Source: Mesorhizobium loti (lineage in GTDB: Bacteria > Pseudomonadota > Alphaproteobacteria > Rhizobiales > Rhizobiaceae). Taken from it: a DNA stretch of 64,000 bases. Below the pieces are notes generated by a model. It was not told the DNA's origin, ran no database searches, and worked only from the letters and a program-made list of their open reading frames with translations. Shown here in pieces: positions 47,160-50,663 of the stretch; position 1 is the first letter of the stretch, and each line of letters starts with the position of its first letter. Position numbers and translations under genes: made by a program. The DNA lies in NCBI RefSeq assembly GCF_002858745.1, contig NZ_PJRO01000013.1, positions 124,001 to 188,000 of the forward strand, written 5' to 3'.

Positions 47160-48131
47160 TCACGCCCGAGGGTGTGCTGCCTCGTAGATGTCGAGCAGGC
47201 GGGCGGTATCGACACCGGTATAGATCTGTGTCGTCGACAGGCTGGCGTGACCGAGCAGTTCCTGGATGGTGCGCAGGTCGCCGCCGCGTCCCAGCAAGTG
47301 CGTTGCGAAGGAGTGGCGCAGCGCGTGTGGCGTGGCAGTCTCGGGCAAGTTCAGCGCCGAGCGCAGTTTCACCATTTCACGCTGGATGATCGCCGGATTG
47401 AGCGGCCCGCCGCGAGCCCCGCGAAACAACGGTCCGTCGGCGCCGAGATGATAGGGACAGAGGCGGCGGTATGCGGCGATCGCCTGGAACGCCACAGGCA
47501 ACACCGGCACCAGCCTGACCTTGCCGCCTTTGCCGGCGACACGCAGCACCGCCTCCGAAGCATGCGCAAGATCAGCACCGGTCAGGCCAAGCGCCTCGGA
47601 AATACGCAGGCCCGAACCATAGAGCAAAGTGAGGACGGCGGCGTTGCGCGCCGCGATCCAGGGTTCCTCCGCCATTTGCTCGCCGGCCGAGACGACCCGT
47701 CTCGCGTCTGCGGCCGTCAGCGGCTTCGGCAGCGATTTCGGCTGTTTCGGTGCGCGCAGCGCTGCCGCGCCGGCGGCATTTGCCAAACCCCGCCGTTCGA
47801 GGAAACGCAGCAGCGAGCGCACCCCGGCAAGCCCGCGCCCCAATGTGCGGGCGCCGGCGCCTTCATTGCGGCGCTGGGCGAGAAAACCGCGCAGGTCAGC
47901 AGGGCGCAAACCGGCGATATCCGCGATGCCTGCCGGGCCGCCGACGTGACCGGTCAGGAATTGCAGGAACTGGCGCGTATCGCGCTCATAGGCCTCCACC
48001 GTCAACGCCGACAGCCGGCGCTCGCCAGCCAACGCCTTCAGCCAGCTTTCGCGGGCAGCCTGGAGGTCCGGTTTGGCGGCGATGAGGAATTCCTGCATTG
48101 GCAGAGCGGGTCCGGTTGAATAAGTAAGCAT
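47160..48131 (-). CDS. xerC: Tyrosine recombinase XerC
   Basis: Site-specific recombinase resolving chromosome dimers at dif with XerD. The 323-residue protein has the N-terminal SAM-like domain and the catalytic set: Arg in GSGLRISEALGL, HALRHSFATHLL (His, Arg), GHASLSTTQIYT (His, nucleophile Tyr). ATG 48131 has GAGAAG 5 bases upstream; an internal ATG (48098) is possible. It is divergent from rimM. Confidence 0.92.
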   Translation of the reverse strand: MLTYSTGPALPMQEFLIAAKPDLQAARESWLKALAGERRLSALTVEAYERDTRQFLQFLTGHVGGPAGIADIAGLRPADLRGFLAQRRNEGAGARTLGRGLAGVRSLLRFLERRGLANAAGAAALRAPKQPKSLPKPLTAADARRVVSAGEQMAEEPWIAARNAAVLTLLYGSGLRISEALGLTGADLAHASEAVLRVAGKGGKVRLVPVLPVAFQAIAAYRRLCPYHLGADGPLFRGARGGPLNPAIIQREMVKLRSALNLPETATPHALRHSFATHLLGRGGDLRTIQELLGHASLSTTQIYTGVDTARLLDIYEAAHPRA

Positions 48132-48167: not shown

Positions 48168-48788
48168 ATGAGCAAACCAAAAAATCCCATCCAGATGGCC
48201 GTGATCGGCGCCGCCCATGGCATCAAGGGTGAGTTGCGCGTGAAAACCTTCACCGGCGATCCATTGGCGCTTGCCGACTACGGCCCACTCTACGCCAAGG
48301 ACGGTCGTGCTTTCGAGATCACCGACATCCGCCCGGCCGGCAACGTCGTGGTGGTGCGTTTCAAGGGCGTCGATGATCGCAACGCCGCCGAAGCGTTGAC
48401 CAATGTCGAGCTCTTCGTCGACCGCTCGGCTCTGCCCGACGATGGCGACGAGGACGAATTCTACCATACCGACCTGATGGGCCTCGCCGTGAAGGACGAC
48501 ACCGGCGCCACCATCGGAAAAGTCGTGTCGGTGCAGAATTTCGGTGGCGGTGATATCCTCGACATCACGCTCGGCTCCCGCAAGGGCGTGCTGATCCCCT
48601 TCACCCAGGCAGCCGTGCCGGAGGTTTCGGTCGACGGCGGCTTCGTGCGCATCGACCCGGTCGCGGCCGGTCTGGTCGAAGATGAAGACGGCGATGGCGA
48701 ACCTGACAGCGAAACGACGCCCGGGCACGACGGCTTCGATGCGAAACGCCGGCCGCGCGGTCCGAAGGACGCCGGGGGCAACCGGTGA
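48168..48788 (+). CDS. rimM: Ribosome maturation factor RimM
   Basis: Binds ribosomal protein S19 and helps 30S head assembly. The 206-residue protein has the N-terminal beta-barrel ([20 protein letters not shown] near 10-29) and the C-terminal PRC-barrel ([13 protein letters not shown] near 99-111, then [13 protein letters not shown]). The acidic tail is extended. Its stop overlaps the trmD start by four bases. Confidence 0.95.
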
Positions 48789-49906
48789 GTTTTTCGGCTT
48801 CGGTTCTGACCCTTTATCCGGAGATGTTTCCGGGCGCGCTCGGCCTCTCGCTGGCCGGCAGGGCGATGGAACGCGGCGATTGGTCCCTGCAACCGATCCA
48901 GATTCGCGACTTCGCTACGGACAGACACCGCACCGTTGACGACACGCCGGCCGGTGGCGGCGCCGGCATGGTGATGCGCGCCGACGTGCTGGCGCGTGCC
49001 ATCGACCACGCCGCGCCCGACGGCGATCCCCGCCCGAAGCTGCTGATGAGCCCGCGCGGAAAACCGCTGACGCAGGCGCGCGTGCGCGACCTGGCGGCGG
49101 GACCGGGCGTCGTCATCCTGTGCGGGCGCTTCGAGGGCGTCGACCAGCGTGTGATCGAGGCACGCGATCTCGAAGAGGTTTCCATCGGTGATTTTATCCT
49201 GTCCGGCGGCGAGCCGGCAGCACTGGTTCTGCTTGACGCAGTCGTACGGCTTCTGCCGGGTGTCATGGGCAATGAGCGTTCCGGCGACGAGGAGAGTTTC
49301 GAGAACGGCCTGCTCGAACACCCGCACTACACGCGGCCGCAGGAGTTCGAGGGCCGGCCCATTCCCGACGTGCTGACCTCGGGAAACCACGCCAGGATCG
49401 CCGCATGGCGGCACGATCAGTCAGAGAAGCTGACGGCGGAACGACGGCCGGATCTGTTGGGTAACGGGCGAACTGTGGAAACGAATGCCTGCCTGCGCTT
49501 CTTTGGAGACAAGCTCGACCCAAGCGAACTCACAACAGCTTTGGGAGGCAACCCAACCGAGGCAATTAAAAAGGGACAATCGGAAAAAACGGGCAAGCCA
49601 GCAAAGACTGGCCTATGGCTGATATCGACTGAGATTCAGAAAGGAGATCAGTTGTCTCATCAGATTGCCACTATCTTGAACTCGCTGACAGATGATCTGG
49701 CCGTGTGGCGCGATCTCGTTGAGCGGTTTGAAAGCGATATGTTCTGCGGTGTCTGGCAGATAGGCAAACCCGGTATGGAAATTGACCCGGCTGTGATGAG
49801 AATGCTTGCAGACAGAGGGTTGCTGCTCGACCTCGACATCTACACCAACACGCCTGTCACCCTTTCAGAAAATAATACGCCGCCAGGAACAGCCCGACCG
49901 CGATGA
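48785..49906 (+). CDS. trmD: tRNA (guanine-N1)-methyltransferase TrmD fused in frame to a DUF4279 domain
   Basis: Residues 1 to about 224 are a complete TrmD, which methylates G37 of tRNAs to prevent frameshifting: N-terminal [19 protein letters not shown], the SAM-knot segments [11 protein letters not shown] and [11 protein letters not shown], and the usual C-terminus [19 protein letters not shown]. TrmD normally ends there (~230-250 aa). Here the frame continues for about 145 residues that look like a full DUF4279 domain ([20 protein letters not shown] near 235-254, ending LLLDLDIY near 355). The DUF4279 part is visibly lower in GC. A TAA lies one base out of frame at 49462-49464 and GTG 49475 could be the original DUF4279 start, so a one-base indel could have created the fusion. 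Confidence 0.9.
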
Positions 49907-50663
49907 CAAAGCCCCGCACCGCGTTCTGCGGTATGCGTTTGGCAATCCAGACACCGACATAACCGCCGACCGCGACCGCCGGGATCATGACGACCGCCTG
50001 GGGCCAGGACACCACACCGCCAGAGACGAAGATCAGAATGGCGACGGCGGCAATGACGATGGAGAACATGTTCTTCAGCGCATTGAGGCGATGGTAATCG
50101 CCGCTCTGGGTCAGGCCGAGTGTCGCCAGCATCATCACGCCCATGCCGGCACCGAAAAAGCCGCCATAGATGGCGGTGGCGAACTGCATGAGAGCGCCCG
50201 GCACGGTGCCGACCGCAGCGGGCTGACCAGGCTTCGGTTTCGGCTTCAGCCATGGCCCGGCGGCAAACAGCGCGGTCGCGGCGATCAGCAGCCAGGGCAC
50301 CATGACGCGGAAGGATGGGTTGTCGAGGGCCAGAAGGAGGAGCGCGCCGCCCAGCGCGCCGATGGCCGAGACGATGCAAAGCAGCAGGGCGCTGCGCCAG
50401 ATGGCGCGGATGTCGCTCCAATAGGCCAGCGTTGACGTGATGTAGCCAGGAAACTGCGTGATCGACGAGGTTGCATTGGCTGAGATCGGCGGAATGCCCA
50501 GAACGCTCATCGCCCCGAAAGTGAGGAAGGTACCGCCGCCGGCAACGGCGTTGACGATGCCCGACAGCAGGCCGGCGGCAAAAAGAATGGCGGCGTCGAT
50601 GAACGTCAAGGCTGGCCCTGTCGAATACGTATCCGGCAGGTTTAGGGGCGTTGCCGCCAGCAC
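49857..50663 (-). CDS. TSUP (TauE/SafE) family permease
   Basis: A 268-residue, eight-helix membrane protein of the family that moves sulfonates, sulfite or organosulfur anions. The two conserved half-motifs are [18 protein letters not shown] near 34-51 and [14 protein letters not shown] near 173-186. A TTG 54 bases inside ATG 50663 would give the more usual N-terminus and is an alternative start. Its 3' end overlaps the fused trmD frame by 50 bp on the opposite strand. Confidence 0.87.

Follow-up and report, generated by a model that had tools for sequence, protein, structure and literature searches.

The window, that is, the whole stretch of 64,000 nucleotides of Mesorhizobium loti DNA analysed here, belongs to a 201,659-base contig of a genome that is available in 35 contigs. 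It holds an open reading frame on the forward strand (48785–49906), open over 373 codons and coding for 373 amino acids, in which TrmD is joined to a whole DUF4279 domain. As an open reading frame this fusion is real. The following features can be distinguished at the locus:

48168–48788, forward strand: rimM (Pfam RimM and PRC), the last 4 nt of which overlap the GTG start of trmD
48785–49459, forward strand: TrmD part up to the residues RRPDLL (PF01746, TrmD equivalog, identity to the genome G005)
49460–49491, forward strand: junction, with the TrmD tail holding AATGCCTG (junction table, pairwise alignments, shuffle test)
49475–49477, forward strand: in-frame GTG, in or beside a 6-nt stretch absent from the relatives G153 and G128 (pairwise alignments)
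49484–49491, forward strand: AATGCCTG, likely relict of an ATG[GC]CTGA overlap, after which 22 nt are missing compared with the relatives G123, G153 and G128
49492–49855, forward strand: DUF4279 part (PF14106, AlphaFold2, profile score), with the Pfam match at 49502–49831
49857–49906, forward strand: C-terminal tail of the fusion frame, 50 nt antisense to the tauE 3' end (from the frame's coordinates)
49857–50663, reverse strand: convergent gene of the TauE/SafE family (tauE; PF01925), often found next to trmD in the genus

An integrase-like gene at 47160–48131 of the window (reverse strand) looks intact, and it is frame-broken in the one-contig record of G005 (L231; identity judged by eye).

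That a complete TrmD runs into a complete DUF4279 domain, as the original prediction had it, was borne out by the profile searches. The Pfam family tRNA_m1G_MT (PF01746) matches residues 25–222 with an E-value of 3.1e-54 and 184.1 bits, against a cut-off of 27.3, and the TrmD part scores 301.1 bits with the NCBI equivalog model NF000648 (cut-off 220; family TIGR00088). Over residues 1–228 it is 93% identical to its counterpart in G005. DUF4279 (PF14106) matches residues 240–349 (E 8.2e-17) and covers profile positions 1–115 of 116; its Pfam score of 62 bits is above the gathering score of 25. The added part is indeed lower in GC, 52.2% compared with 67.1% for trmD. A search of the genome returned one trmD match (E <= 0.001) and one DUF4279 match, both of which lie within the fusion frame. 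Since no other trmD match exists in this genome, the TrmD of the fusion presumably works.

How the end of trmD usually looks was read from the genus. A trmD match was found in all 146 genomes and its end was read in 144, G137 and G150 being left out because of a broken or partial match. The gene converges on tauE and overlaps it in 105 of the 144; the two lie within 30 nt in 8, 31–150 nt apart in 11 and further apart in 12, and in 8 tauE is outside the stretch fetched. The TrmD tail is of the PLxK type in 99 cases. Only two tails extend more than 30 residues past RRP, and both are in-frame extensions: the window fusion and that of G106 (L070:219–443), where a KTSC domain (PF13619, 56 matched residues) continues the TrmD frame directly after RRPDLL and where the old trmD tail begins 16 nt past the KTSC stop. 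Likewise, the DUF4279 gene of G099, G008, G153 and G463 ends in the old trmD tail (PLAK, PVTK). In a survey of the family, 46 genomes were searched, one per genus, and 30 gave loci (best matches first), 29 of them besides the window. Among these 29 other genera trmD overlaps a convergent tauE in 15, mostly with a QPVTK-like tail; tauE lies within 30 nt in 2 and far away in 1, and was not seen in 11. Because the old tail reappears at the DUF4279 end or past the insert, and trmD overlaps tauE elsewhere, we interpret these genes as insertions into the final codons of trmD. The same interval holds other genes as well. In G031 a DUF4160 gene and a DUF2442 gene (L023:2321–3125; Pfam) are placed between trmD and tauE and are followed by a C-terminal remnant of DUF4279. 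What appears to be the same pair is found there in G125 (L152:331–1020), seemingly in one shared frame.

DUF4279 was found in 14 of the 146 congeneric genomes, the window's included. Behind trmD it is present in seven Mesorhizobium genomes: fused in the window, separate in G166, G123, G099, G008 and G153, and truncated in G128; the other 139 congeners show no DUF4279 match at this place. According to identical DUF4279 sequences in a scan of named genomes, the six relatives are M. tianshanense, Mesorhizobium sp. M7A.F.Ca.US.006.01.1.1, M. sophorae, Mesorhizobium sp. WSM4306, Mesorhizobium sp. ES1-1 and a Mesorhizobium MAG. A draw of 394 genomes from the family gave 14 with this type of DUF4279, again including the window, and three of that draw from two other genera (G273, G463, G417) have it behind trmD. 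Thus nine other species carry a trmD-linked DUF4279, in three genera counting Mesorhizobium, with seven separate full genes, the truncated one of G128 and that of G417, which is split near its start by a transposase reading frame. In a draw of 397 genomes at the level of the order, 10 had a match. At the unlinked DUF4279 loci neither trmD nor rimM nor tauE was seen in the stretches fetched (27 loci checked), and no TrmD-DUF4279 fusion was found in any other genome searched.

Two earlier assumptions can be judged from this distribution. The low GC had been taken as a sign of import from elsewhere, but the linked DUF4279 genes have 54–58% GC in the seven linked relatives measured; as a trait common to them it is old, and a recent import is not what it indicates. 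Relatives with separate trmD and DUF4279 genes at the same place, which the original prediction had named as a finding that would refute it, do exist; they bear on the ancestry of the fusion and do not by themselves show an error in it. Among the linked genes, those of G099 and G008 (L036, L037) share 89% protein identity in DUF4279 and 91% in TrmD, with 68–78% for other congeneric DUF4279 pairs, which suggests an exchange of this segment between species.

In seven of the nine linked relatives (G166, G123, G099, G008, G153, G128 and G463) DUF4279 starts with ATG[GC]CTGA, a motif which includes the TGA of trmD, and in G417 the border reads TGA-G-ATG. In the ninth, G273 (L155:1504–1947, minus strand), both genes are in the same frame with a TAG and a few codons between them, a possible fusion precursor or case of readthrough. 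The window retains AATGCCTG at 49484–49491, and this ATG occupies the +1 frame, just as that of the relatives does. From this ATG to a conserved TTC there are 17 nt in the window and 39 nt in G123, G153 and G128, hence 22 fewer. A loss of 22 nt, one more than a multiple of three, removes the stop and at the same time brings DUF4279 into the frame of trmD. When the 40 nt of the junction were shuffled 200,000 times, ATG[GC]CTG arose in the expected frame 326 times. The pairwise alignments with G123, G153 and G128 put the motif at 49484–49491, those with G166, G099 and G008 put it elsewhere, and a 22-nt gap was not seen in the MAFFT multiple alignment of the junction.

After RRPDLL the window continues with G-N-G-R-T, to be compared with E-N-G-K-T in G166 and G031. 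The residues N-G-R-T, read in frame 0 after the TAA, fit the TrmD tail in four of six linked congeners, the exceptions being G123 and G008. The chance of such a fit at four set positions is near 1e-4, though the residue classes were picked after the tails had been seen. As described before, a TAA lies out of frame at 49462–49464 and GTG 49475 is in the DUF4279 frame. However, in none of the nine linked relatives does trmD stop at the codon of this TAA, and the GTG is probably not an ancestral start, since it lies in or beside the stretch absent from G153 and G128. If the frames were joined by the 22-nt loss, both the TAA and the GTG would be coincidental. The tail fit together with the motif further downstream, in its expected frame, lets us prefer the loss at the overlap to that of an upstream base. 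An indel is therefore still the likely cause of the joined frame, as first suggested, but not a missing G before the TAA.

The five full separate DUF4279 genes of congeners score 61.9–72.4 bits with Pfam, and the fused domain scores 65.3. With a profile built without it, the fused domain reaches 144.6 bits, and 11 relatives scored by leaving each out in turn reach 153.8–188, all of them higher. As a neutral control, the G166 gene was mutated to a mean identity of 52%; the 60 copies gave a mean of 64 and at best 101 bits, and 5% of them were free of a stop. AlphaFold2 gives the fused domain a confident fold (mean pLDDT 91.7); the mean for the model of the full-length fusion is 51.6, and this model was set aside. 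In the tree, seven of the linked genes form a group with the fused domain (80/95) and G273 falls outside it; a single clade of all nine linked sequences is possible (p-AU 0.19). The branch of the fused domain is 1.05 long, compared with 0.05–0.25 for linked congeners and 0.53–0.87 for linked genes of other genera. This would suggest that the fused domain evolves faster; yet the DUF4279/TrmD ratio of dN is 4.7–5.6 between the window and the linked congeners, inside the 1.0–6.5 found among those congeners. The window species is more distant in TrmD, too (dN 0.086–0.096 to the linked congeners, 0.029–0.069 among them), and so a faster evolution is not established; dS is near saturation (pS 0.69–0.78 between the window and linked genes). 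Judged by these sequence comparisons, we read the fused domain as kept under constraint over the whole divergence, a constraint that may have been loosened.

Taken together, the TrmD-DUF4279 chimera is probably real and was probably formed by the loss of an overlapping start and stop. In lineages ancestral to some Mesorhizobium and related genera an accessory DUF4279 gene would have been inserted near the end of trmD, among its tail codons, between RRPDLL and the former tail QPLVK*. In the normal state DUF4279 would be a second protein, probably translationally coupled, its ATG overlapping the trmD stop (ATGGCTGA). In the lineage of the window 22 nt just 3' of this motif would then have been lost, and with them the trmD stop and the first DUF4279 codons, leaving one frame. 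The cell would make the chimera as its only TrmD. This would still form a homodimer that methylates tRNA at G37, and the small alpha/beta DUF4279 domain would be appended to its C-terminus. DUF4279 may keep a job of its own: like an immunity protein, it would most likely bind and neutralise a partner, now at 1:1 with TrmD. Computation supports the architecture, the existence of homologues as separate genes, the relict motif, the fold and the purifying selection on the domain over its whole divergence, and we infer the expression of the chimera, TrmD activity, dimerisation, translational coupling and the role of DUF4279. We consider the proposal as a whole, from the insertion to the DUF4279 domain keeping its own job, to be likely.

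An assembly or sequencing error would mean that the true sequence has one more base ahead of the TAA at 49462, where trmD then ends, and that DUF4279 is a separate gene starting from GTG 49475. The TAA is in the right place for this and the genes are separate in the relatives, but the codons past the TAA match four of the six linked congener tails, the relict motif lies 3' of it in the expected frame, and the nine linked relatives all stop trmD elsewhere. When window and G005 were compared with a codon-position filter, frame breaks appeared in the window for 4 of 93 coding-like reading frames of G005 and in the reverse direction for 5 of 92, the clearest break being in the integrase-like gene, which by eye looks intact in the window. 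We hold such an error to be very improbable. The same GTG, being in frame and having a short GGG a few bases upstream, might serve as an internal start, so that free DUF4279 would be made besides the chimera. As it is probably not the ancestral start, however, and a strong ribosome-binding site was not visible by eye, two products appear possible but doubtful.

The DUF4279 part could further be a neutral accident, a tolerated and decaying appendage devoid of function. The long branch and the profile score below that of 11 relatives would agree with this, and so would the linked copies broken elsewhere: the truncated one in G128, the split one in G417 and the C-terminal remnant in G031. Against it stand the open frame, the confident fold, a score above that of neutral decay and the dN ratio within the range of congeners; since these data span the whole divergence, a decay of recent date would fit them as well, and altogether we regard this explanation as unlikely. 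Conversely, DUF4279 might act on TrmD itself, through dimer geometry, tRNA binding or regulation. The linkage to trmD in three genera speaks for this, as does one relative in which DUF4279 follows miaB, another modification gene for position 37 of tRNA. But other relatives lie behind lipA, recN, map and further genes which have no pathway in common, and 139 of 146 congeners have no DUF4279 match behind trmD; an action on TrmD seems rather improbable.

The unlinked relatives show that trmD is not the only such neighbour. At 13 of 29 unlinked DUF4279 loci a recognisable conserved gene ends within 60 nt of the start codon chosen by our script: lipA (offsets −1 and +28 nt), recN (+42, +45), map (−4, −1), miaB (+4), a MoaB-like gene (+2), a biotin carboxylase gene (+3), spoVR (+58) and GNAT-type genes (+13, −17, −17). 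The DUF4279 genes of L160, L163, L173, L176, L177, L179, L185, L187 and L196 follow the lipA, recN, map, MoaB-like, biotin carboxylase and miaB genes at distances of up to about 50 nt. Ten upstream proteins were run on Pfam (including pnp, at +134) and four on NCBIfam, where lipA, recN and map exceed the equivalog cut-offs and miaB does so by a narrow margin. For L160, L176, L179 and L190, the second cases of lipA, recN, map and GNAT, the assignment was made by eye from their likeness. At the remaining 16 loci the upstream gene is absent, distant, unnamed or a likely shadow reading frame. In Thalassobius sp. I31.1 (L184:2986–3960) DUF4279 and a GNAT acetyltransferase (PF13302) are joined in one frame, which follows another GNAT gene. 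We take the pattern as a lead that DUF4279 may ride as a passenger on the 3' ends of housekeeping genes. More tentatively, it might belong to a class of passengers which repeatedly lodge at the ends of such genes, borrow their translation through start/stop overlaps and sometimes fuse with them. If so, the trmD end of Mesorhizobium would be a natural laboratory, with DUF4279, KTSC and the DUF4160-DUF2442 pair at one site.

To our knowledge no tested function of DUF4279 is known. It has been proposed to be the immunity protein paired with an Rhs-Ntox33 toxin (PMC13304343), and a DUF4279 protein merely appears in an expression table of PMC12645872. The candidate of the former adjoins its Rhs toxin, whereas the DUF4279 of the window sits at the end of trmD. 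No toxin gene lies beside the fusion, the immediate neighbours being rimM, trmD and tauE (Pfam), and Pfam identified none among ten genes lying upstream of DUF4279 in unlinked relatives. A defence system was rejected on the absence of any PADLOC family match at E <= 0.01. A phage origin was also rejected: PHROGs gave no match (E <= 0.01), and among 47 pattern matches in viral contigs there was one relative, at 35% identity. A search for solved homologues of DUF4279 returned by sequence just two hits (E 0.48 and 0.71) and by fold a best Foldseek E of 0.024 and a best VIA Z of 4.5 (97 residues, 4.2 Å), too weak to name the fold. Binding is the most likely role, a statement made with low confidence.

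TrmD contributes to the accuracy of protein synthesis, is essential in bacteria where this was tested, and is deeply knotted. Therefore a natural C-terminal load on the sole TrmD copy of a cell tests what its tail and dimer can bear. Furthermore, the locus displays, species by species, insertion into the tail, start/stop overlap, an in-frame stop (G273), fusion, truncation and replacement, which are the steps of a route by which neighbouring genes can become one protein. It is a natural test of how small genes attach to housekeeping genes and fuse with them.

Like an ordinary TrmD (tRNA guanosine-37 N1-methyltransferase), the protein of the window has a complete TrmD domain encoded directly behind rimM, but it carries about 145 extra residues. 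The PDB chain 8b1n_A (436 aa) is presumably TrmD-Tm1570. This natural C-terminal TrmD fusion (PF01746-PF09936) is still a homodimer according to PMC11187310. Natural fusions of this kind are thus already known, and in the available portions of the literature searched on TrmD fusions, DUF4279 and KTSC we found neither DUF4279 nor KTSC as a partner of TrmD. Two further papers describe TrmD joined to a COG4752 SPOUT domain (PMC1829167) and ThiS fused to TrmL and RlmH, which still formed dimers (PMC5372735). By analogy with these cases, SPOUT enzymes appear to tolerate C-terminal loads. In TrmD-Tm1570 the partner is a second knotted SPOUT methyltransferase, in the window it is DUF4279; PF09936 is absent from the fusion frame, for which Pfam gives only PF01746 and PF14106 (E <= 0.001). 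Also close is the TrmD-KTSC fusion of G106, which comes from the same genus and has the same insertion point after RRPDLL, likewise in frame, but a partner from a different Pfam family.
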